A program made the translations under genes and the position numbers. From a virus: 32,874 bases of DNA. This document shows, piece after piece, positions 6,374 through 25,020 of the stretch. The first letter of the stretch is position 1, and every line of letters begins with the position of its first letter. The stretch is taken from positions 1 through 32,874 of the IMG/VR virus record IMGVR_UViG_3300048879_000009. One strand, given 5' to 3'. The notes under the pieces were generated by a model. The model was not told the DNA's origin and ran no database searches. It saw only the letters and a list, made by a program, of their open reading frames with translations.

Positions 6374-8029
6374 TTATTTTTTTAGGCCTTTTTTGTCCGC
6401 ATCCTTTATGTTCTTAAGGTACCAACTTACAGGGTCTTTCTCGAAAGCTTTTAGCTTGGTGGGAGCATTCCTGAAGTACCCGTCTCCGCCATTCAGAGAC
6501 CCTAGGTTATCCTGCAGCCACTTTACAACTTCATCGCGTGTCTTTTGTTTCTCGTAGTCCTTAGCAGACAGGTTGTTATCTAAGGTCCAAGGGACAATGT
6601 CCTTACTAAGCGTAGTTAACACCTTTGCGGTTCTGTTGAATAGTTCGTTGCTAGCCTTACTCGCCTGATTACTTTGTGTATTTTTAGAAGCAGATTTATC
6701 TATTTGGGTCTTGGTAACTCCGCTTATACCTGCATTGTTTTTATGTTTTGTAGGCTTAGGCTTAGGCTTAGGTGTAGGTGTAGGTGTAGGTGTAGGTGTA
6801 GGTGTACCTCCTCCAACGGGTGTCCCATCAACTGTGTTGTTAAGGTTATTAAGTCCATCACCTCCTGCACCAGGAGCAGGTTTCTGTTGGTTGTAACTGC
6901 CTCCAAGAGCTCTCTGCATCTCTTGTTTAAATACCCCTAATAAAGATTTTGCTTTTGTAGTGTTGCCTTTACGTAGCGCCTGCTGGTAAAGACCAGCTTC
7001 GTTATTCATAAAGTCAGTTACGGCTTTCTGCTTTATCTTATTTAGTCCTTCAGCATCACCACTACCGCTAGCTTTCTGTAAAGCCTCTAGTGTCTGTGCG
7101 TTTAGTAGCCCTACCTTAGCAGTGCTTTCTACTACACCTAGTTGCTTAGACGTAATACTAATAGCGTTTACTGGGTCAAGGCGTTTAATTACGTTCTGCG
7201 AGAAGTCTTCCCAGTTTTTACCTGCCCAAGGAGCAGCATTTGTTGGGTTACCTTCTTGGTCTAGTTCCACAATAGAAACGGCTCCAGACTCATCGGTATC
7301 GAATCTTATGTTTCCTGTGATGCCGTCTTGTGCATCTATTAATGCCATAAGTTCTTCTTGTCCGCCTGCCTGTCCTTTACCCAAGGCAACCTGGACACTA
7401 GCCATAAGTTGGGCTCCTACGTTCGCTTTTTGGTGAAGCTCAAATGCGTCTGTGGCCTTGATTGTGTCACAGAAGACACTATTACCAGCTGTTGATTTGC
7501 ATTTTTCCTCTAAGAACGTTTTGCCTTCCTCCGGTTTCATAGCACTGTACTCGGTTAGCCACTTATTGTGTTGCGTGTCTATGTCTGCTTGGGATATTGT
7601 TACCTTTCCCACGGCATCGTCAACGACGTTTTTGTTATCTTGCCCTTTAATTAGCCCCTGAAGTCTTAATAGTTCAGCATCTTTGGTGGCTAGTGCTGTT
7701 TTGTATGTATCTTCAAACATTCTGTTCTGGTTTCTACGCTCTTGCAAGCCAGCCAGCTTATCTTGGATATCCATAGCGCCTTTTATGTCGCCGTATCTAG
7801 CTGCGTTGTCACTTAGACCTTGGTACTTAGCTTGTCTAGTATCTTCTAGCGTACCGTAGTTCTTACCGCCCATAGAGAAACCAGTAGAAGCGCCAGCGTC
7901 GTCGAACTGCTCCACAGCTTTTTGGTCCATGATGTCGCGGTCAGCGCCTTCTCTACCGAATTTATTTACCTCACCATATACAGAAGTGAAGTTATCGGCA
8001 AACTGCTGCCATCCTGATTTACGTGCCAT
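6374..8029 (-). CDS. Probable internal virion (ejection) protein, 551 aa
   Basis: I do not recognise a named family. The protein is mostly helical, polar and rich in Gln, Lys, Ala and Asp, with no signal peptide or membrane span. The start MARKSGWQQFADNF is followed by long predicted helices to about residue 375. A low-complexity linker at about 400-430 carries alternating Thr-Pro then Lys-Pro pairs, and a charged tail of about 120 residues follows. The ATG at 8029 overlaps the stop of the upstream S74 gene (TAATG), and the giant gene begins nine bases after this stop. Size, composition and position between an S74 protein and the giant polyvalent protein suggest one of the ejectosome proteins, in the position of T7 gp15/gp16. 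That role is inferred from context only. Confidence 0.8.
   Translation of the reverse strand: MARKSGWQQFADNFTSVYGEVNKFGREGADRDIMDQKAVEQFDDAGASTGFSMGGKNYGTLEDTRQAKYQGLSDNAARYGDIKGAMDIQDKLAGLQERRNQNRMFEDTYKTALATKDAELLRLQGLIKGQDNKNVVDDAVGKVTISQADIDTQHNKWLTEYSAMKPEEGKTFLEEKCKSTAGNSVFCDTIKATDAFELHQKANVGAQLMASVQVALGKGQAGGQEELMALIDAQDGITGNIRFDTDESGAVSIVELDQEGNPTNAAPWAGKNWEDFSQNVIKRLDPVNAISITSKQLGVVESTAKVGLLNAQTLEALQKASGSGDAEGLNKIKQKAVTDFMNNEAGLYQQALRKGNTTKAKSLLGVFKQEMQRALGGSYNQQKPAPGAGGDGLNNLNNTVDGTPVGGGTPTPTPTPTPTPKPKPKPTKHKNNAGISGVTKTQIDKSASKNTQSNQASKASNELFNRTAKVLTTLSKDIVPWTLDNNLSAKDYEKQKTRDEVVKWLQDNLGSLNGGDGYFRNAPTKLKAFEKDPVSWYLKNIKDADKKGLKK
6751..6804 (-). repeat. Hexanucleotide tandem repeat coding for Pro-Thr/Pro-Lys linker
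   Basis: Nine in-frame hexamers lie head to tail: read on the plus strand, three copies of TAGGCT followed by six copies of TAGGTG. On the coding strand they give alternating Thr-Pro and Lys-Pro. Because the unit is six bases, gain or loss changes linker length without a frameshift. Confidence 0.9.
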
Positions 8030-9147
8030 TAGTGGACCTCCTTCATTTCTAAACCAAGCATAGCATAGTCAACCCATAAGTAGCCTTCGGCTTCCCCTAC
8101 TGCAGCTGGGAACTTCGATTGAACCTCTTGTGCCATCACACCTTGGTACGTCTTACCGTCCCAGTTATAGTTGAACTCGTATAGGTTTAGTCCAGTGCGT
8201 TCGTCCTTACCTACCTGTTTAATATTGTCTTTAAGTCTCTCATCTGAAAAACCAAATTGAAAACCAGTTTTCTTACCGTCATAGTTAGAGCCGCCGTAGC
8301 CCCATTTGTCGTAGCCGAAGCCGCGGTCGCCGTCATTAAACATACCAGTCTTATACACACCAGCTGCAGCACCGAATGCTCCACCGATGTCGCCCATTAG
8401 GCTGCCTCGGTTTTCGCTTTCTTGCATTGCCATCTTGGTCTTGTTGTTCATAACATTACCAAGAGTATTTAAGTTCATGTTAAGTCCTTGCCCTACAAAG
8501 GAGCCGCCAACGTTGGCACCTTGCATGTAGTTTTTACCAGCTGCTTGGTATGTGTTAGCCGCGTTACTTCCAGCATTAACTGCGTTGCCGTACGCCGAAG
8601 TAGAAGCGCCAGATAAGTAGTTACCGAGTCCCGCTGCTTGTACCTTACGATTAAACCCGGCGTCGACTGCACGCTCTCTAGTACGCGTCATATTTCCTGC
8701 TCTATTAGCAGAGTGCATTAGCGCAGATTGACCGCCTAGTCCTTGGAATCTACCCGAATTTGGGTTAACCCCCATACCGGCCATAGCCCTTTCGTTTGCT
8801 TTAGTTGTTCTGTTGAATGCTAAACCAGAGTCAGCTGCTGCTTGAGTAGCAAGTCTGTTACGGTACGCGTCTGTGTCGAAGTTCTGGGCATCAGAAACGA
8901 TGCTCTTTTCTAGGGGTCTGAATGTGTCTTTGTAGTAATCGAAGTAGTCTTTACCTTGAGCAGCTTGTTCAGTCATAAGACCTTTCTGAGCGTCTCCGAT
9001 TTCGTCTAAGCGAGGAGCATTTCTGTCATATTCATCCTGTGCGAAGTCTATTACTCCCTGACCTATGGTATCCATCCTATCAGCTGACTTATTTCCCAGG
9101 TCTGTTAGGGGGGTGTAGTCTGGTGCTTCTACGTCTTTTTTACTCAT
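8029..9147 (-). CDS. Virion protein with C-terminal S74 intramolecular chaperone/protease domain
   Basis: The last 72 residues form a peptidase S74 domain, the self-cleaving chaperone best known from phage tailspikes and fibres. It opens with SDERLKDNI; Ser301 and Lys306 match the Ser-Lys dyad of that family. The expected later parts are also visible (NLYEFNYNWDG, YQGVMAQEVQSKFP, WVDYAML). Autocleavage just at Ser301 would release the domain. The first 300 residues are unlike a beta-helix: they are Gln/Asn/Ala/Gly-rich and look helical, with a Gly/Ala stretch near 250-265 (DIGGAFGAAAGVY) that could interact with membranes. That body and the position before the 551-residue and giant genes suggest an ejection protein that carries an S74 tail, not a receptor-binding spike. 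The ATG overlaps the end of the acetyltransferase gene by eight bases. Confidence 0.85.
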   Translation of the reverse strand: MSKKDVEAPDYTPLTDLGNKSADRMDTIGQGVIDFAQDEYDRNAPRLDEIGDAQKGLMTEQAAQGKDYFDYYKDTFRPLEKSIVSDAQNFDTDAYRNRLATQAAADSGLAFNRTTKANERAMAGMGVNPNSGRFQGLGGQSALMHSANRAGNMTRTRERAVDAGFNRKVQAAGLGNYLSGASTSAYGNAVNAGSNAANTYQAAGKNYMQGANVGGSFVGQGLNMNLNTLGNVMNNKTKMAMQESENRGSLMGDIGGAFGAAAGVYKTGMFNDGDRGFGYDKWGYGGSNYDGKKTGFQFGFSDERLKDNIKQVGKDERTGLNLYEFNYNWDGKTYQGVMAQEVQSKFPAAVGEAEGYLWVDYAMLGLEMKEVH

Positions 9148-9571
9148 TCGTTTTTCCTCTAAAGTAATTCTGAGGCCATAGCACCAAAAGGATTGTATCT
9201 TGTCCTTCCGACCCTGCCTGCTTCATAACGCCTTCTTCTTCGAAGCCGATATGTTTATCTAGTCTCAATGCTTTGGAGTTGTCTTCAGCGACCAACCCCG
9301 TAAGTCTTTTTAGTCCGCAAGAGCCAAACGCGTATTCTATTACAGCATGGTCTAACAATTCTAAAAACAGCTTACTGGGTTTGCTGACAGCGATGTGTGC
9401 AGTAGCGTTGCATTCATTAAAATTGTTGAACACTATACCACTTACAAGTTTACCGTTTACTTCAGCGCCCATAGCGTAGAACGAACCCCAGGAGGTTCTT
9501 TGTCCTACTTCTTCAGCAACCCATGAGCCAACACGTTCTTTGTCGTCAAAGACTAAACGAGTTTCCCTCAT
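9140..9571 (-). CDS. GNAT-family N-acetyltransferase
   Basis: A small protein with the GNAT fold pattern: MGAEVNGKLVSGIVFNNF as the central strands, HIAVSKPSKLFLELLDHAV at the expected strand and helix, then RLTGLVAEDNSKALRLDKHIGF and EEEGVMKQA, the usual final segment of acyl-CoA-dependent acetyltransferases. The substrate is unknown. I chose the ATG at 9571; an in-frame TTG at 9583 would add four residues. Neither has a clear Shine-Dalgarno sequence. The gene lies between tail and ejection genes, overlapping the S74 gene by eight bases, so it is expressed late and may modify a virion or host protein; that is inference. The 69-base gap upstream is A+T-rich. Confidence 0.8.
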   Translation of the reverse strand: MRETRLVFDDKERVGSWVAEEVGQRTSWGSFYAMGAEVNGKLVSGIVFNNFNECNATAHIAVSKPSKLFLELLDHAVIEYAFGSCGLKRLTGLVAEDNSKALRLDKHIGFEEEGVMKQAGSEGQDTILLVLWPQNYFRGKTNE

Positions 9572-9652
9572 GGGGTACTGCAAATACTTATTAGCACAAG
9601 TTTATTATATATCATACTTATCGCTAGTGTGTGATTGTTTTTACTCACCGAA

Positions 9653-16407: not shown

Positions 16408-19400
16408 TTATCTGGCTGTTGTATATTTTGTGGGGTACTCGGCAAATGCCATATAGATATAAGTAACGTTATTACCGTTTAAGCCTACATCACTCCATCT
16501 TATTTTAAAACCGTTTGAGTTAAAATCACAGTAATCAGTTGATGAAATTTCTGCATTAGAAATATTTGCAATCAATCGGTGTTTTAAAGCATTATAAGAA
16601 GAACGCTCACTATCTAAAATGTACCAACTTTCACCAGCAGTTGATGACGCTTTAATTAGAACATAAGCAGGTCTGAAACCCGTATAAACAAACGTACCGT
16701 CTGAACTAGCGTTACCGATATAGCTACCCATCTTAGAATACCCTTCTTTCGATGCAAAACAATAAGCTATATGTGTGTCACCACTACCGTTAAGACCACT
16801 CCAGTGTTTGAGATTGAATACTGTACTTGTAGGTGCTATGTTATTCCAATAACCATCTGATGACCTTGCAACAGTCTGGTCTAACTTCATTTCATAATTC
16901 TGTGGACTTGTGGCATCCATACCTACGTGATAAGTACTCCAACTTTCACCAGCAGCACTAGATTCTTTAATGATAACTACTTCAGCAGGTACACCTAGAT
17001 GATGTGGAATTTTATGATTAGCTGTGGCGTTTCCAACGTACTTTACTATTGAAAATCCTGCATCGGCATTATAACTAGCTGTATAAGATTGAAGTGTACC
17101 AGAACCACTCGTTGTGCCACTAGCAGAAGTACCAGCTTTCCAGTTCCAAGCAACAAAAGTATGACCGCTTTGGTTTACATAACTACTACTACCAATTTGA
17201 AAGCCATTACTCTCAAATGCTTGATGATTATTTGCATTAGTTTCTTCTTCCCCTGTAGAATTAGAGCGTAAACGCACAGAAGCACCCCTAACAGAATCAT
17301 ATAATTCGTTTGATATATCAGCACTTCTCTTTTTCAACCAAACAAAATCAGGTTGAAACCCAACAGAAATACTCCTATCATCTGACCCATCACCAGCATA
17401 AGCAACAACATTAAAGTTCTCTTGTGGCTTAACCGCAGGTTCTGGAAGATTGTTTGTGCATAATGCTAAGAATCCAGTAGGTGGTTCGTAAAAGAAGTCA
17501 CCGTATGTTCCATCAGTATAGTTACCTGAGCCTGTCTTGTTACCAGCGAATGATGAATCTTGTCCGAAGTTCAGAACCCAGTCGTTAGCAGTACCAGAAG
17601 CACCCACACAAGGCACATAAGTATCCGCAACTATTGAACTATATGTATAGATTAATGAGTTGTTCTTGTACCACTTAATAACATTAGTATCCATATCAGC
17701 AGCAACAGCAATAATATCACCTGCTGAGAAACTAGCCGTGCCACTTGAAATCAGAGTATGGCTTGTAGCGTTCCAAGCACAGTTGTAAACATTACCGTTA
17801 TCACATCTTATGGAGTAGGTAAAAGCACCGTTAGGGTCGCCCCTAGTTGCTCTAACACCTACATAACTAGGTTGTGGACTTCCAACACGAGATTCCCAAT
17901 ACCACTTGCCAGAGTCAAAACCTAACGTACAGTCTCGAATACCGCCTGATGCTGGTGCGTCATACTCTAAGTTACCATTAGAAAGTGTAGGAAATGCGTT
18001 AGTACCTAGCCACTTAACTCTACCTAAAGGACTAATAGTACAGAAGTTATTAGTAGGCGAGTCTAGCATCTCATCACTAGCATCTATATTGTTAACTGTC
18101 CAATCATTACCTTTACCAGATTTATCAGCCCATAAAAGTGCCTCTCTAGTATCAGCGAAAGCCATATAGATGTATGTGTCACCACTAGCATTAATACCTA
18201 CATTCGTAGTCGTAGGTTGAAAACCAGTAGAAGATGTTGAAACACCCCTTCCGCCATTCTCTTCACTAGAAGCATTAGCATATATATAAATGTCCATATC
18301 CCCAGTAGGGTCTCTATCAGAGTCCAACATATGCCAACCACTTGCAGTAGTAGCGTTTTTTATCATTACGAATCTGGGCTTGAAGCCACACGTTACTGTA
18401 GGTCCAGTTGTAGAACCATTTCCACTGTAGCTTCCAATAGATGAATATCCTGTTACCGAATGGAAACAATAAGCCATCATAGAACCACTATTATGATTTG
18501 CTGATGAGCCTAGACTAAAAGTAGATGCTGTCGGTGCTGTATCATTCCACCAAGTAACGTGGTCATCAGCAGCATCAGTAAGATTCAAAGCAATAGCATC
18601 TGTTTCAGCATCGCTTGCTATACCACTATGGTAAACTTTCCAAGGATAACCGCTTGCATCTTTTCTTTTAACAATCACCATCTCTGGTGCTGAAGATAAT
18701 CCGTGACCTACAGTAGCATTAGCAGAAGTTCCAGTGAAAGTCACGATACTCTGACCTTTAGCGGTATTCGCTTTACAAGTAGAAGCAATAGTTCCTTGTG
18801 TGAAATCACCTGTTCCTAAAAGAGTGCCGCCCATATTCCAACACCAAGCTACATAATTACCACCACTACCATTAATTCCATTATCACCACCAGCTGAGAA
18901 CCCGTCTGAATCAAACGAAGATAAAGCACCTGTGTATGCCCCATTCTCTATTCCGTCAGTATTTGTAAATAATACTTTTAACGTACCCCTTACTGAATCG
19001 TAAAAGTGATGACCCTCACCAGCGTTTCTCTTTTTTGTCCATACAATATCAGGTTGAAAACCAACCCCTGTAATATTTTGAGTAGTGCCAGTACCAGAAT
19101 AAGTAACAATACCAAAACCAGCAGCAGTAGTATCGTGTTTGAACGGTAGGTAGAAACCATTATTACCATAGGTTAATCCACTTACTTCTTTAGGCTTCCA
19201 GTGTTTGTAGTCTGCATCAAATTCACCAAAGTCATACTGGTTTTTTGCAGCACCATCTACGAAGTGTACCTCTGCTAAATAAGCGTCTAGGTAGTCTGCA
19301 CTATACTTACCAAATCTGTGTTCAGCCGATGTTGTGTTTACCCAAAATTCGTGGTTGAGTGGTGGATATGTTTCTGTACTGAAGTCTGTTATCTTTTCTC

Positions 19401-19800
19401 CATTAACATACAAATTCATTCTATCGGATGGAGTTACTTTTGTCGTATCTAAAGCACAAACGAAGTGCATCCAAGCACCTGTATCACGATATTTAGCAGT
19501 AGTAGTTAATCTATAATCTGAAGTCTTATCAACATAAAAGTCAAATCTCTCTGATGAGTCAAATCTTATATAGGTTGGTCCGACACTTTCAGTAAATATA
19601 ATCTGCCTTACCCCTTTGATATTACATCGTTTAACCCAAAAACTAAGTGTCCAAGTTCTAGCATCACCAGCAACGCTAGGGGTTCTACTTAGATAAGGAC
19701 TATCATCGTCATTAAACCTTAACGAGTTGTCAATAGAGAAGCTAGTAGCAGCACCTTGTCCAGCTGCACCTTGCCTAGATTTATCAGAATAAAATGCCAT
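16408..19800 (-). CDS. Large adhesin: LamG domain, six fibre repeats and a SPRY domain
   Basis: Parts in order: a LamG/concanavalin-like domain (about 20-200; SLRFNDDDSPYLSRTPS, WTLSFWVKR, YLAEVHFVDG); three linked repeats (229-322, 351-446, 456-549); a SPRY-like domain (about 605-750; GKWYWESRV, YVGVRATRG, KWYKNNSLIYTY); and three more repeats (797-886, 917-1014, 1026-1121). Repeats carry GFQPDxVWxKKR-type cores (DUF7483-like) and end in AWCWN, AYCF or YIYMAFA. The order A-B-C is the same on both sides of SPRY. LamG and SPRY domains usually bind glycans or proteins, so this is a probable receptor-binding fibre. AGGAG precedes the ATG at 19800. Confidence 0.85.
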   Translation of the reverse strand: MAFYSDKSRQGAAGQGAATSFSIDNSLRFNDDDSPYLSRTPSVAGDARTWTLSFWVKRCNIKGVRQIIFTESVGPTYIRFDSSERFDFYVDKTSDYRLTTTAKYRDTGAWMHFVCALDTTKVTPSDRMNLYVNGEKITDFSTETYPPLNHEFWVNTTSAEHRFGKYSADYLDAYLAEVHFVDGAAKNQYDFGEFDADYKHWKPKEVSGLTYGNNGFYLPFKHDTTAAGFGIVTYSGTGTTQNITGVGFQPDIVWTKKRNAGEGHHFYDSVRGTLKVLFTNTDGIENGAYTGALSSFDSDGFSAGGDNGINGSGGNYVAWCWNMGGTLLGTGDFTQGTIASTCKANTAKGQSIVTFTGTSANATVGHGLSSAPEMVIVKRKDASGYPWKVYHSGIASDAETDAIALNLTDAADDHVTWWNDTAPTASTFSLGSSANHNSGSMMAYCFHSVTGYSSIGSYSGNGSTTGPTVTCGFKPRFVMIKNATTASGWHMLDSDRDPTGDMDIYIYANASSEENGGRGVSTSSTGFQPTTTNVGINASGDTYIYMAFADTREALLWADKSGKGNDWTVNNIDASDEMLDSPTNNFCTISPLGRVKWLGTNAFPTLSNGNLEYDAPASGGIRDCTLGFDSGKWYWESRVGSPQPSYVGVRATRGDPNGAFTYSIRCDNGNVYNCAWNATSHTLISSGTASFSAGDIIAVAADMDTNVIKWYKNNSLIYTYSSIVADTYVPCVGASGTANDWVLNFGQDSSFAGNKTGSGNYTDGTYGDFFYEPPTGFLALCTNNLPEPAVKPQENFNVVAYAGDGSDDRSISVGFQPDFVWLKKRSADISNELYDSVRGASVRLRSNSTGEEETNANNHQAFESNGFQIGSSSYVNQSGHTFVAWNWKAGTSASGTTSGSGTLQSYTASYNADAGFSIVKYVGNATANHKIPHHLGVPAEVVIIKESSAAGESWSTYHVGMDATSPQNYEMKLDQTVARSSDGYWNNIAPTSTVFNLKHWSGLNGSGDTHIAYCFASKEGYSKMGSYIGNASSDGTFVYTGFRPAYVLIKASSTAGESWYILDSERSSYNALKHRLIANISNAEISSTDYCDFNSNGFKIRWSDVGLNGNNVTYIYMAFAEYPTKYTTAR

Positions 19801-19812
19801 TAATTATGTCTC

Positions 19813-20340
19813 CTAAGGGGCGGCCACAAATCCGTTACCTGCTTCCATACCGTACCAAGTTGTACCGTCACAGAGGAAAGAGTAAATTGAAATAGTTGTA
19901 GCACTAGGCACCGTACCTGATGCCCATAAGATTGCAGGTGTACTAGTCCAACTAGCTGGTGCAGTCTTAACAATTATAGTAAATGCTTTACCAGCTACTT
20001 CAGCAGGCATAGTAATAGCCACTGCTGATGCTGAAGTTAAATCAAATATAGTACCGTTAGCTAGGTTAACTGTGTATGTTGTTGCTGAAGATGTAGCTTC
20101 TGTTTCTGTGATTCCTTTGAATGTCTGGGTAGCTGTATAAGTACTAGTTTCATCTGTCTTAACAATAGCAGAATCTGCTGCCTCATACGCTGAGTGAGTA
20201 TGATTACCTACTGCAACATCAGTAGAACTTGTGCCTGTGTTTAAGTAAGTGGACGCTATTTTGTCAGTACTAATATACTCACCTAATGAGGTTACGTCAG
20301 AACCTGTATATATTGCCTTAACTGGTATTCTATCTGCCAT
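19813..20340 (-). CDS. Short tail-fibre protein, 175 aa
   Basis: The N-terminus (MADRIPVKAIYTGSDVTSLG, then EYISTDKIASTYL) and the middle VGNHTHSAYEAAD are typical of phage short fibres: an attachment part, a His-containing strand as in NHTH fibre motifs, and a small beta-rich tip (about 95-175, LANGTIFDLTSASAVAITMP). TAGGAG precedes the ATG, ten bases after the upstream gene. It probably forms a trimer at the tail. Partner and receptor are unknown. Confidence 0.7.
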   Translation of the reverse strand: MADRIPVKAIYTGSDVTSLGEYISTDKIASTYLNTGTSSTDVAVGNHTHSAYEAADSAIVKTDETSTYTATQTFKGITETEATSSATTYTVNLANGTIFDLTSASAVAITMPAEVAGKAFTIIVKTAPASWTSTPAILWASGTVPSATTISIYSFLCDGTTWYGMEAGNGFVAAP

Positions 20341-20349
20341 TTCTTACTC

Positions 20350-20937
20350 CTAAGTTACTGGTATTGTGTCTGATGTACCATCCGCTTTAAAGAAGGGGAA
20401 TGTACTATTAGTTATTGCTATTGTGTCTGATGTACCATCTGCTTTAAAGAATGGGAATATTGTAGCTATTGTACTCCAAGAAGCATCACTTGCATCTGTA
20501 GTTAGGTACTTACCTGCATTACCTGTCTGAGAAGGTAAACCAGCAGGTACTGATTCCCACTTATTGTCACCTCTTAAAAATGTAGATGAGCTAGCTGTTC
20601 CTGTTGCAGATAGTTGGTCTACGCCTACAGTATCGTCACTAGGCGTACCTATATCTACATTCTGACCTTGATACATTATCCAAGAGGCAGCTCCTGTTGC
20701 AGGAGCAGTCTTAAATATAATATTACTACTTGACACTTTAAATCCTTTAGTACCTGAATCGTCTGGTTCTTGCATTACGCCACCGATACTAACCAGTAAT
20801 AGCCCAGACTTAGCAGGACTAACAGCTGAACCACCTACTTTTAACGCAAATGTTTTTAGAGCCCCGTCAAAGGTTGCCAAGGGATCTATTTTTTGGTAGT
20901 TACCTACATGAGCAGGACTATTTCCTATGTATGCCAT
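20350..20937 (-). CDS. Tail-fibre/structural protein of marine phage type, 195 aa
   Basis: MAYIGNSPAHVGNYQKIDPL and the following segment FALKVGGSAVSPAKSGLLLV, SIGGVMQEPDD and YQGQNVDIGTPSDDTVG match a domain found very often at the start of marine phage fibres. It is followed by a fibre-like stretch (STFLRGDNKWESVPAG). The C-terminus holds a 19-residue unit present twice, with FPFFKADGTSDTI in both. The ATG overlaps the halogenase stop (TAATG). The protein may be a truncated fibre or an adaptor for the following fibre genes. Confidence 0.75.
   Translation of the reverse strand: MAYIGNSPAHVGNYQKIDPLATFDGALKTFALKVGGSAVSPAKSGLLLVSIGGVMQEPDDSGTKGFKVSSSNIIFKTAPATGAASWIMYQGQNVDIGTPSDDTVGVDQLSATGTASSSTFLRGDNKWESVPAGLPSQTGNAGKYLTTDASDASWSTIATIFPFFKADGTSDTIAITNSTFPFFKADGTSDTIPVT
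20363..20459 (-). repeat. 57-base tandem repeat at the 3' end of the 195-aa fibre gene
   Basis: Two nearly identical 40-base blocks (20363-20402 and 20420-20459) are spaced 57 bases apart, keeping the frame. Both encode FPFFKADGTSDTI. They are separated by AITNST. Confidence 0.85.
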
Positions 20938-22532
20938 TAGATAATCTCCTTATAAATATGTTTCTTTAGAAAAGCATAGTGTGATAATGTGTGTTTTATA
21001 GCTTTTTGGTTTGATTTTAACTCTACATCAAGTTCAGCATCTATACCATTTAAGTATTTCTTTAGCTCAGGTAAATCTTTACTATAGCGTAATTCTACAT
21101 CATATTTTGACATTGGGTTATACCCAAACCCATCCATGATATAAGGTAAGCCATCTAATTGTCCAATAGAAGACCAATTATATTCAATCCCTGATACTGT
21201 CCTTGGTATGTAGTTAGTCAGTGTAAGCCACTCGTTAGATTCGTTATCTGTATAGTCTAAGTCTTCTGTTACATATTTCCAATAAGGTGTGTCATCTCTT
21301 TCAGCTAAAGCAAAATGAGCTGCGATAAACCCTGAAAACTTGTTCATGGTGTCTCTGATAGCAATATTAAATATACTCTTATCATAACCATTTACTCTAC
21401 CATTTCGTCTTTGTAGTGTTTTCACCAATTCAAATATTGTCAAGTGAGTCAACATTAATCCTGTACTCTCTAAAGGCTCAATGAATCCATTAGATAAACC
21501 GATAGCAACTACATTTTTAACCCAATTCCTTTCATGCAAACCAGGCTTTATGTCAACATGGAACGCTTTGATTGAATCTATTTCTTCTTGTGAATGTTTT
21601 ACATCTCTGTCGTTTACTAGATAATCTTTAAATTCTTTTTCAGCGTCTTCGGGGGTCATAAACTGTGAACTATACACATAACCTGTTCCAATCCTATCCC
21701 ATAGAGGGATATTCCAAACCCACCCTGAACTTAACGTGGTGGCGTTGGTAGAGTGTTCCATTTCAATTTCTTTATCAACATAAGGTATTCTAATAGCAAC
21801 AGCCTTGTCGTTTATAAGCTTGTCTTTAAATGAAACAAACGGCTCTCCTAGAGTTTCTGTAAGTAGTAATGATTTAAAACCAGTACAGTCAATGAAAATG
21901 TCTGACACAAGGGTTTTACCACCCTTGGTTTTGATATTAGATACATTTCCTGAGTCATCCTGACTGACACTAATTACATCATCAACAATGTGTGTCATAC
22001 CTCTAGGAAGGCAGTAGTTCTTTTTTAGATAGTCTCCAAAAAGAGAAGCATCCATGTGATAGGCTGTATCTAAGTCAAAGTTCCAACCCCTAAATGAATC
22101 AGAGTCTTTAGTTAGTTTATTGTTGCGTAATAATTCAGAAGAGCCTAGAGCGAAATCTATATATTCGTACTTACTTTCATTAGAATTTAGCGCTTTTTTA
22201 ATAAACCAATCTAATGAACTATACTTATTAAGCCAAGTAGCGTTCCCGAAAGGGTATTTAACTCTACTACCATCACCTCTAAAGTTAGTAAAATCTATAG
22301 ATGTTTTATATGTAGCATTACAGTATTCCATCCAATCTTCATCTTTAAGACCTAAGTCTATAAGATAATCATTTATAGAACCTATTGTGGACTCTCCTAC
22401 ACCTATAGTTGGAATATCACTAGACTCAATTAAAGTTAAATCCATACTTGGGAAGTTCTTTAATAGACTAGCAGCAGTCATCCAACCTGATGAGCCACCG
22501 CCAACGATAATTATTTTACCTATCTTAGCCAT
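20937..22532 (-). CDS. Flavin-dependent (tryptophan-type) halogenase
   Basis: At 531 residues the gene is full length (PrnA and RebH are about 530-538). It shows the FAD-binding GGGSSG near 11-16, GVGES (44-48), the NATYKTSIDF segment whose Lys76 aligns with the catalytic Lys79 of PrnA/RebH, DCTGF (215-219), WVWNIP (271-276; the WxWxIP halogenase signature), GTGYVYSS (282-289), and EPLESTG (352-358), where Glu355 matches Glu346 and STG helps bind halide. All key residues are present, so the enzyme is probably active. It needs reduced flavin from a reductase, which is not seen here. Halogenases of this family occur in marine phages; VirX1 of cyanophage Syn10 has been shown to iodinate diverse substrates. 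The gene overlaps its neighbour by eight bases upstream and one downstream. The substrate is unknown. Confidence 0.93.
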   Translation of the reverse strand: MAKIGKIIIVGGGSSGWMTAASLLKNFPSMDLTLIESSDIPTIGVGESTIGSINDYLIDLGLKDEDWMEYCNATYKTSIDFTNFRGDGSRVKYPFGNATWLNKYSSLDWFIKKALNSNESKYEYIDFALGSSELLRNNKLTKDSDSFRGWNFDLDTAYHMDASLFGDYLKKNYCLPRGMTHIVDDVISVSQDDSGNVSNIKTKGGKTLVSDIFIDCTGFKSLLLTETLGEPFVSFKDKLINDKAVAIRIPYVDKEIEMEHSTNATTLSSGWVWNIPLWDRIGTGYVYSSQFMTPEDAEKEFKDYLVNDRDVKHSQEEIDSIKAFHVDIKPGLHERNWVKNVVAIGLSNGFIEPLESTGLMLTHLTIFELVKTLQRRNGRVNGYDKSIFNIAIRDTMNKFSGFIAAHFALAERDDTPYWKYVTEDLDYTDNESNEWLTLTNYIPRTVSGIEYNWSSIGQLDGLPYIMDGFGYNPMSKYDVELRYSKDLPELKKYLNGIDAELDVELKSNQKAIKHTLSHYAFLKKHIYKEII

Positions 22533-22848
22533 TAAAAGTTATCCAAGTTAAATTATCCTCATCCCAAGAGTGGTCTATACCCTCTGTTGGGCGAGTTACT
22601 GGGGAGTCCCATTGACAAGTATCTTCGTTAAGAGTCCACGAGCTGAACGGTTGAGGTGCAATGAAAGCATCTCTAGCTCTATCGTAGGTAAACCCTATAC
22701 CTGCGTAATTCTTACGGAAGTTACTATTATACGAGGTTTGAACCCATCTAAAAGCATCTCCAAAATTACCTGAGTTAACTTCCATTTGTGATATTCTTAT
22801 AACTTTAGTTACGATGTTATCATTATCTATTTTTGCAAAATGTGACAT
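22525..22848 (-). CDS. Conserved small phage protein upstream of the halogenase, 107 aa
   Basis: MSHFAKIDNDNIVTKVIRIS, then WVQTSYNSNFRKNYAGIGFTY, FIAPQPFSSWTLNEDTCQWD and HSWDEDNLTW form a pattern found widely in T4-like cyanophages and other marine phages, near fibre genes and of unknown function. The small domain is rich in aromatic residues, with five Trp, and looks beta-rich. AAGGAT precedes its ATG. Its 3' end overlaps the halogenase start by eight bases, so the two are made together. A virion role is likely; partnership with the halogenase is inference. Confidence 0.75.
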   Translation of the reverse strand: MSHFAKIDNDNIVTKVIRISQMEVNSGNFGDAFRWVQTSYNSNFRKNYAGIGFTYDRARDAFIAPQPFSSWTLNEDTCQWDSPVTRPTEGIDHSWDEDNLTWITFNG

Positions 22849-22860
22849 AACTTATATCCT

Positions 22861-25020
22861 TTAATATCTAATAATAACAACGCCTGAACCACCAGTACCA
22901 GCATAAGTAGCAGTTGCACCACCACCTCCACCACCAGTGTTTTGTGTACCATTATTAGGACTACCTTGAGTACCTGCGCCACCGCCGCCTGAACCACCTG
23001 CACCATTACCACTGCCACTGTAACCTGCACCACCGCCACCACCTGCGTAATAGCCACTAACACCTGTTGAAGTTGCTGTTGCCCAATCTGACCAAGTATT
23101 TTTACCTGCACCGCCAGCACCACCAGTGAATGTTCCAGGTGCGTTAGAACCGCTAGAACCTGCACCCCCGCCACCGCCGCCAGCAGCACCGTTGTTGTAC
23201 TGAGAAGAGTTACCACCGCTATTACCATATCCTGTGGCACCACCTGTATCACCTTGGTTTGATGCTGCTGCGCCTCTAGGACTACAGTAATTACAAGAAC
23301 CACCACCACCACCTGAGCCTCCAGTGTTTGCTTGGTAATAACTACCATAAGCACCACCACCACCACCACCATTAGATGTTGTGGAGTGGAATGAAGAATC
23401 ATCTCCATTACCACCTTTGTTATCAGTACTTACTGGTCCACCACCACCTACAGTCACTCCGTATGATGTTACAGATACAGCTTTACCTGAGTGATAACTA
23501 ACACCACCTGCACCACCACCACCACCATAATGACCACTACCACCACCACCACCACCAGCAACTACAAGGTAGGCTACTGATGTTAATGAAGCACTAGTAA
23601 CTTGAAAAGTTCCTGAACTTGTGAATGTGTGATATGTATATGAACCTGAAGTTGATACTGTGCCACCTGTTGCCGCGCTAGAAGCACTAATAACAATACT
23701 ATCAGTTGAACTGTAAGCAGAATCTGTGTAAGTTGCATCAGCCGAATTAGTTACCTTAGCTCTATTAGAGTAGGTTGCGACTGTGGTATAAGTTAAAGTA
23801 ACTGTGACGGAAGTACCTGACCAACCAGTAATTTCAACAGTGTTACCTTCCTTTGAACCTGAACCTGAGCCTACCGAACCATAAGTAAAGTTAGAGCTTT
23901 GAGCATCGAAGATAACCTTAGTAGCGTTAGCGTTAATGCTTGATATAGTATAAGTCACTGCTGTTGCATCATCAGTATCAGCAGGTGCATTTAAACTAGG
24001 TGCTGATAGTTGTTCGTAAATTATAATACTATCTGATGCACTATAAGCAGAATCACCGTAAGTACCATCAATCTTAACGGACTTAGCTTTAACTGCAGCA
24101 TAAGTACCTAACGCAGTAAACTGAAAAGTTATCGTAGGATTATTAGTACCAAAACCAGTACATATAATAGTATTACCGTCAGTAGTTACTGACGCACCTA
24201 CAACATCAACACTTATAGTACCAAAGCTGGTAGTACCTAAATCTAAGATAAGCTTATCATCGTTAGAATCAGTTGAAGTTATTATATATGAAAGGCTAGT
24301 ATTTATGGTAGTGTTAGCAGGACTATTTATAGTTGGTGCTGATAGGTTTGTAGTTAAGTTCTTAGTCACTAAAGCACTATCATCTAATCCAAGAGAATCA
24401 GTGGTAGCTTTAATAGTATAAGATGGTACACCTGATGTATGTGTTACTACAAATATACCTGAAGTATTGATTGAACCTACAGTACAGTTAGTTGGAGTGA
24501 TAACATAAGTAATATCATCTGACCAGTTAGAAATAGTATGTGATACATTACCACCATTATCTAACGATAGAGTTCCTGTGATACTAGGTGAATCTAAACT
24601 AACAGAACTAACACCTACAACTGCTTCACCACTTGCCTTAGAATAGTTAGTACATCTATAATCACCAGCAGCATATTCAATAAACTCTGCCTCATCACCA
24701 GCAGCAGTAGTAATACTTGCACCACTTGGTAGAATTAAATCAGTAGCGTGGTGAGTTAAAGTCAAAATAGCATCGAAGTGTAATTTGATTAAAGTACCTG
24801 CTCCGCCAGTTGCATTAATACTGGTAACAGTCACAGTACCAGTAACATCAAAATAGTTACCATCTGTTAGGACAGGTAGAGCAGTAGCAGAGGCTACATC
24901 AGCACCTTTAGACCATTGTATTTGTGCCCCATTAGCATCTAAGTCACCACCTAGTTGAGGTGTTGTGTCATCAATTACATCCCCTATTCTGGGTACTGGT
25001 GTTCTTCCTATGTAAGGCAT
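22861..25020 (-). CDS. Tail fibre with Ig-like repeats and Gly-rich tip domain
   Basis: The N-terminus MPYIGRTPVPRIGDVIDDTT, continuing TPQLGGDLDANG, is a common marine phage fibre attachment motif. Residues about 145-222 form an Ig-like or cadherin-like unit. Two related units of about 108 residues follow (227-335 and 338-446), each starting LSAP and ending DSAYSxxDSIxI. A short strand block (YTYHTFTSSGTFQ) then leads into a very Gly-rich region (about 488-712) of GGGGG and GAGG runs with interspersed Ser, Asn and Tyr, ending GTGGSGVVIIRY. Such Gly-rich tips resemble the polyglycine-helix domains of receptor-binding adhesins, for example gp38 of phage S16. AGGAG precedes the ATG. It is probably a host-range determinant. 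Confidence 0.85.
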   Translation of the reverse strand: MPYIGRTPVPRIGDVIDDTTPQLGGDLDANGAQIQWSKGADVASATALPVLTDGNYFDVTGTVTVTSINATGGAGTLIKLHFDAILTLTHHATDLILPSGASITTAAGDEAEFIEYAAGDYRCTNYSKASGEAVVGVSSVSLDSPSITGTLSLDNGGNVSHTISNWSDDITYVITPTNCTVGSINTSGIFVVTHTSGVPSYTIKATTDSLGLDDSALVTKNLTTNLSAPTINSPANTTINTSLSYIITSTDSNDDKLILDLGTTSFGTISVDVVGASVTTDGNTIICTGFGTNNPTITFQFTALGTYAAVKAKSVKIDGTYGDSAYSASDSIIIYEQLSAPSLNAPADTDDATAVTYTISSINANATKVIFDAQSSNFTYGSVGSGSGSKEGNTVEITGWSGTSVTVTLTYTTVATYSNRAKVTNSADATYTDSAYSSTDSIVISASSAATGGTVSTSGSYTYHTFTSSGTFQVTSASLTSVAYLVVAGGGGGGSGHYGGGGGAGGVSYHSGKAVSVTSYGVTVGGGGPVSTDNKGGNGDDSSFHSTTSNGGGGGGAYGSYYQANTGGSGGGGGSCNYCSPRGAAASNQGDTGGATGYGNSGGNSSQYNNGAAGGGGGGAGSSGSNAPGTFTGGAGGAGKNTWSDWATATSTGVSGYYAGGGGGAGYSGSGNGAGGSGGGGAGTQGSPNNGTQNTGGGGGGATATYAGTGGSGVVIIRY

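Follow-up and report, generated by a model that had tools for sequence, protein, structure and literature searches.

A recurrent adhesin–halogenase gene arrangement in marine phages suggests that phages may halogenate their host-gripping tips

In many marine phages a gene for a glycine-rich adhesin lies upstream of a halogenase gene. The bacterial loci analysed did not show this arrangement, which suggests that phages may halogenate the tail tips that attach them to their hosts. In the marine phage locus described here the best candidate for the substrate of the halogenase is a glycine-rich adhesin, encoded one gene upstream of a gene for a 107-aa protein. We propose, with a probability of about one half, that the halogenase post-translationally halogenates ring residues in the loops by which this adhesin binds its receptor. 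Slightly less probable is the wider form of the proposal, in which marine phages would halogenate, and with 2OG-Fe(II) oxygenases hydroxylate, their glycine-rich adhesins, the tips would carry iodo- or bromo-Tyr or -His, and the natural substrate of VirX1 would be a tail-fibre adhesin.

Earlier views of these genes are metabolic or speculative: phage halogenases were considered to protect against antibiotics (PMC2984593) or to act on host metabolites (PMC10452541), and cyanophage oxygenases were connected to 2-oxoglutarate levels or DNA repair (PMC3037559). For VirX1 the scope in vitro has been reported, but no natural substrate (PMC8407142), and a search of an open-access library gave no paper linking a halogenase to post-translational modification of a tail fibre or virion. 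A module of adhesin, chaperone and halogenase provides a concrete candidate natural substrate for phage halogenases. If the proposal holds, a virion protein would be halogenated enzymatically, which would add a post-translational layer to phage host recognition and extend the host-recognition chemistry of the virion tip beyond the genetic code; the arrays of 2OG-Fe(II) oxygenase genes beside cyanophage fibre genes would be explained as well.

The halogenase and its late operon

The stretch of DNA analysed here (the window) is a virus record of 32.9 kb and represents a fragment. Its capsid protein is nearest to those of Rhizobium phages (43% to RHph_TM3_14A), with Roseobacter CRP phages and Pelagibacter phage HTVC103P as more distant kin (about 28-34%). 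Judged from sequence similarity, the virus resembles podovirus-like phages of heterotrophs and is not a T4-like cyanophage. The minus strand carries one late operon, which leads from head-tail adaptor and capsid genes to fibre genes and in which transcription passes through the 719-aa glycine-rich fibre (22861..25020), the 107-aa gene (22525..22848), the halogenase (20937..22532), two small genes of the fibre block and the gene of a 1130-aa fibre (16408..19800), all on this strand. The first of the small genes, directly 3' of the halogenase, encodes a 195-aa fibre-like protein (20350..20937, minus strand; PHROG 18673 tail fiber protein, E = 2.1e-44), and the second, taken from the ORF list, a 175-aa protein (19813..20340, minus strand) that gave no PHROG or Pfam match. 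The initial annotation placed the halogenase between fibre genes of a late block, and this is borne out by its neighbours, the glycine-rich adhesin and the fibre genes, together with the capsid and head-tail genes. It is likewise correct that no flavin reductase is visible, since none was recognised among the scanned ORFs of the 32.9-kb fragment. The window also encodes a GNAT-like acyltransferase within the structural block (9140-9583; PHROG 4470) and a 372-aa protein whose C-terminal domain is an intramolecular chaperone of the endosialidase S74 type (8029-9147; PF13884).

The halogenase is a flavin-dependent enzyme of 531 aa, which matches PF04820 (E = 5.5e-103; 345.7 bits, with the curated cut-off at 21) and PHROG 2928 (E = 2.5e-137). 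Its closest PDB entry is VirX1 of cyanophage Syn10 (6QGM, E = 5.6e-120), to which it is homologous over its full length (residues 1-527 aligned, ~42-43% identity, catalytic residues intact). The motifs GGGSSG, GVGEST and WVWNIP are present together with Lys76 and Glu355, the latter within EPLEST, and the earlier claim that the catalytic residues and FAD motifs are retained was thereby confirmed in sequence and alignment. Conservation of these two residues among phage halogenases is far above chance, with Lys76 retained by 290 and Glu355 by 277 of 291 distinct sequences. A relative at 48% identity (L007:6411-7970) has an Ala in place of the catalytic Glu (EPLAST), and its function may be altered.

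PrnA, RebH, PyrH and their kin share with the window halogenase the PF04820 fold, the FAD motifs and the catalytic Lys and Glu. However, the alignments of these tryptophan halogenases end at about residue 420-430 of the 531, and the unaligned C-terminal part of the window enzyme is therefore VirX1-like; unlike the enzymes for free tryptophan, it is also not accompanied by a biosynthetic cluster. The window halogenase is thus very probably active and VirX1-like. MibH, SrpI and ChlH, which belong to the same enzyme class, act on peptides, and ChlH acts in addition on a residue in a 1054-aa protein, a precedent for halogenation within polypeptides (PMC12518702). What sets these enzymes apart is that they work in the making of peptide natural products, with Trp as the target residue, and MibH (5UAO, E = 1.5e-46) is less similar to the window halogenase than VirX1.

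Gene neighbourhood of phage halogenases

Phage halogenases were collected by three scans and from annotated phage genomes, yielding 200 clusters (90% identity) and 161 gene blocks. The searches started from the window and Syn9 enzymes, and the sample therefore leans to VirX1-like forms; genes were called by a simple ORF caller, a gene counted as glycine-rich by a 33%-glycine rule, and 2OG genes were recognised by 22 annotated seeds. Glycine-rich genes were found at positions -2 to -4 relative to the halogenase in 35-41% of the blocks and at -5 in 20%, but at -1 in only 1% and downstream in 0-5%. Within four genes, a glycine-rich gene was present upstream in 67 and downstream in 4 of 119 blocks. 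When the distance was set to six genes, 73 of 134 phage halogenases (<70% identity) had one upstream, and almost half of them did not. Mapping this label on the halogenase tree needed 12-15 changes.

In the same analysis of 57 bacterial halogenase loci both counts were 0, and none of these loci had a glycine-rich gene within six genes upstream. A single-protein scan gave no bacterial kin of the window halogenase, and the bacterial relatives found by an alignment scan had at most 42% identity and lay in other neighbourhoods. As one hypothesis the initial annotation had linked the enzyme to a late or virion protein. This part is supported over a link to a metabolic operon, as a glycine-rich adhesin gene precedes more than half of the sampled phage halogenases but no bacterial one, whereas the 107-aa protein was not supported as the constant partner or likely substrate.

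In 104 of the 119 blocks a 2OG-Fe(II) oxygenase gene is found no more than four genes away from the halogenase. In the VirX1 locus of Syn10/Syn9 the order is the same as in the window, the halogenase position following glycine-rich adhesin genes and a small gene, and two tandem halogenases, of which VirX1 is the second, are followed by an oxygenase array. The window differs from it in having one halogenase and, with the 22 annotated seeds, no recognised oxygenase gene, and its 107-aa chaperone-like gene takes the place of a gene of the gp40 family. The phages differ too, since that of VirX1 is a T4-like cyanophage and the window virus resembles podovirus-like phages of heterotrophs. A close relative of the window halogenase (locus L005) follows a glycine-rich gene and a PF16778 tail assembly chaperone. 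Several T4-like loci (L038, L039, L013, L008 and others) carry up to nine 2OG-Fe(II)/JmjC/cupin oxygenase genes after the adhesin and halogenase genes.

The alternative that survives best, although we regard it as unlikely, is that the halogenase is an auxiliary metabolic gene in a plastic hot-spot within the fibre region and acts on a small aromatic compound of the host or environment, such as tryptophan, indole, a pigment or a signal. Genes for a carbamoyltransferase, an epimerase and a ferrochelatase-like protein occur in the fibre region too, and some phage halogenases sit in replication contexts or metabolic islands. The published views, metabolic or antibiotic (PMC10452541; PMC2984593), and the many small substrates that VirX1 takes (PMC8407142) are in line with such a role. 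A mere hot-spot, however, would account for proximity, and the glycine-rich gene has beyond this a fixed order and orientation relative to the halogenase, a link that recurs over distant halogenase lineages. In addition, no metabolic operon partner is present, and the linked adhesins show a residue bias (see below). Other contexts were noted among the blocks: in L025 (350-2648), where there is no glycine-rich gene, a 95-aa ferredoxin-like gene two genes behind the halogenase may encode an electron donor dedicated to it. In Actinomycetia phage DSL-LC01 (L133:3049-8518) the context is again of the fibre type, with two collagen-like genes just ahead of a distant halogenase and a glycosyltransferase gene behind it.

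The glycine-rich adhesin and its loops

The proposed substrate is the 719-aa tail-fibre adhesin, which was identified by a match to PF21722 (E = 1.5e-14) and by the fold of its C-terminal domain. This glycine-rich receptor-binding domain (residues 455-719; 22864..23658, minus strand) was modelled by AF2 with a pLDDT of 94.5 and a pTM of 0.92. Foldseek matched it to the fibre protein gp24 of phage Pam3 (7YPX_A, probability 1.0, E = 2.8e-5), and a further fold match was the Bxb1 tail tip (9D93, E = 4e-6); S16 gp38 was absent among the matches listed for this domain. For Pam3, receptor sites have been proposed at the tips of the loops of this domain, and the chaperone wraps around the fibre at its glycine-rich part but was undetected in virions (PMC9608196). 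Both Pam3 and the window thus combine a glycine-rich domain with a chaperone-like neighbour gene (gp24/gp25 in Pam3, 7YPX). They differ in that no halogenase is mentioned in the passages on Pam3 considered here (PMC9608196).

The glycine-rich cores of adhesins near halogenases are rich in His, with cluster means of 2.6-3.0% compared to 0.43% for those without halogenase or oxygenase, an about 7-fold enrichment at cluster level (p = 3e-13 and 1e-5; these and the following p-values come from several comparisons and are uncorrected for multiplicity). Tyr, Trp and Cys are partly raised in these cores as well. In the adhesin type associated with the 107-aa family, His amounts to 1.9% versus 0.5% (p = 0.001), and Tyr and Trp are not raised. 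The window adhesin itself exceeds all 81 controls in Tyr and ranks in the top 4% for His. Adhesins with an oxygenase and no halogenase nearby contain 4.5% Pro versus 2.4% (p = 0.002, six clusters only), and higher Pro contents of adhesins near oxygenases may be a mark of prolyl hydroxylation of the fibre.

A His residue in the first glycine-rich loop, which in the window reads GGGGGGSGHYGGGGG, was found in 129 of 221 distinct loops near a halogenase and in 10 of 101 without one. After clustering these values changed to 19 of 68 and 5 of 49 (p = 0.02), and for the 107-aa type to 5 of 9 and 4 of 36 (p = 0.009). The bias is confounded with the adhesin subfamily and becomes weaker at loop 1 after clustering; it fits ring residues as targets.

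The bias could also have another origin, for instance if His-rich loops bind metal or a receptor, halogenase phages merely coincide with such adhesins and the substrate has nothing to do with the bias. The HxH-type runs of cyanophage adhesins (NFSHNHQSHS) and the weakening after clustering speak for this explanation. Against it, the bias persists in the adhesins of the 107-aa type, whose halogenases are spread over different parts of the tree, and we therefore give it little credence.

Modification of the adhesin could proceed as follows. A module of glycine-rich adhesin, adhesin chaperone and VirX1-like halogenase would be expressed late, and the enzyme would be made along with the adhesin. 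From reduced flavin, O2 and halide of the seawater it would form a hypohalous species, guided by Lys76, which in turn would halogenate exposed ring residues (His, Tyr and possibly Trp) on the glycine-rich receptor-binding loops. Hypoiodous species label Tyr and His of proteins. The most plausible sites would be loop tips such as His497-Tyr498, candidate residues that an alignment places in the first glycine-rich loop, at its tip (codons 23527..23532, minus strand). Halogenation would change the chemistry or the stability of the host-binding tip, and in many phages these adhesins would also be modified by the adjoining 2OG-Fe(II) oxygenases. VirX1 forms a trimer whose active site is large and open, and its preferred halide is iodide, followed by bromide (PMC8407142).

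Other proteins of the fibre operon

Instead of the adhesin, another virion or host protein could be modified, such as a different fibre or a host receptor, which would make the link to the adhesin indirect. A Tyr/Trp-rich fibre was among the substrates considered initially, and the 1130-aa fibre of the same operon, with SPRY and DUF7483 domains (PF24299, PF00622, PHROG 19943), contains 28 Trp and 61 Tyr. However, a DUF7483-like fibre was found in no other halogenase locus, which rules it out as a general partner, and the neighbour that does recur is the glycine-rich adhesin. We consider this possibility slightly less probable still than an independent origin of the residue bias.

The 107-aa protein is a member of PHROG 7759 (E = 1.1e-35). 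As described in the initial annotation, it contains five Trp, and the end of its gene overlaps the halogenase start by exactly 8 nt (22525-22532, with the stop codon at 22525-22527 and the start codon at 22530-22532). The designation as virion-type was an assumption, and the protein looks more like a tail-fibre chaperone. Its AF2 model (pLDDT 89.5) has as best PDB fold match the Pam3 chaperone gp25 (7YPX_a), with a probability of 0.95 and an E of 0.19, which is not significant; weaker viral fold matches include annotated tail assembly chaperones. The adhesin and the 107-aa protein consequently match two chains of one complex, 7YPX, the chaperone match being weak. The protein has 107 residues as against 162 in gp25, whose C-terminal helical domain is probably missing from it. 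Sequence searches of the family against PDB and Pfam gave no useful match. From its location and the weak fold match to gp25, it is probably the chaperone of the adhesin and not a virion protein.

A search of IMG/VR gave 488 relatives for this family, and the best 80 were examined. In 74 loci a glycine-rich gene was directly upstream of the family gene in 81%, whereas the halogenase was the next gene in ~3% of the 107-aa loci among these best 80 of 488. Conversely, only 4 of 119 halogenase blocks had a family member at a distance of up to four genes, and none was seen beside the nearest halogenase relatives (those at 60-64% identity, and loci L002-L007), some of whose contigs are short. An obligate pair is thereby rejected, and the constant co-occurrence across phages that the initial annotation proposed to test fails. 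The proposal that this Trp-rich neighbour is the substrate draws on the overlap, the five Trp and a second locus (L203) with the order glycine-rich gene, 107-type gene and halogenase, but it is very improbable, since the family is common without a halogenase, is absent from the nearest relatives and keeps its Trp regardless (W71, W80 and W95 invariant and W102 nearly so in a 40-member alignment of proteins almost all without an adjoining halogenase).

Homology of the family to that of Syn9 gp40, encoded before the halogenase in T4-like cyanophages, was rejected with an hhalign probability of 0.15%, and the slot before the halogenase is therefore filled by genes without detectable relation. Four T4-like cyanophage loci without a halogenase here (L294, L295, L361 and L362) keep the glycine-rich adhesin, 2OG oxygenases and a gene of the 107-aa family, with a carbamoyltransferase gene in between on the opposite strand.
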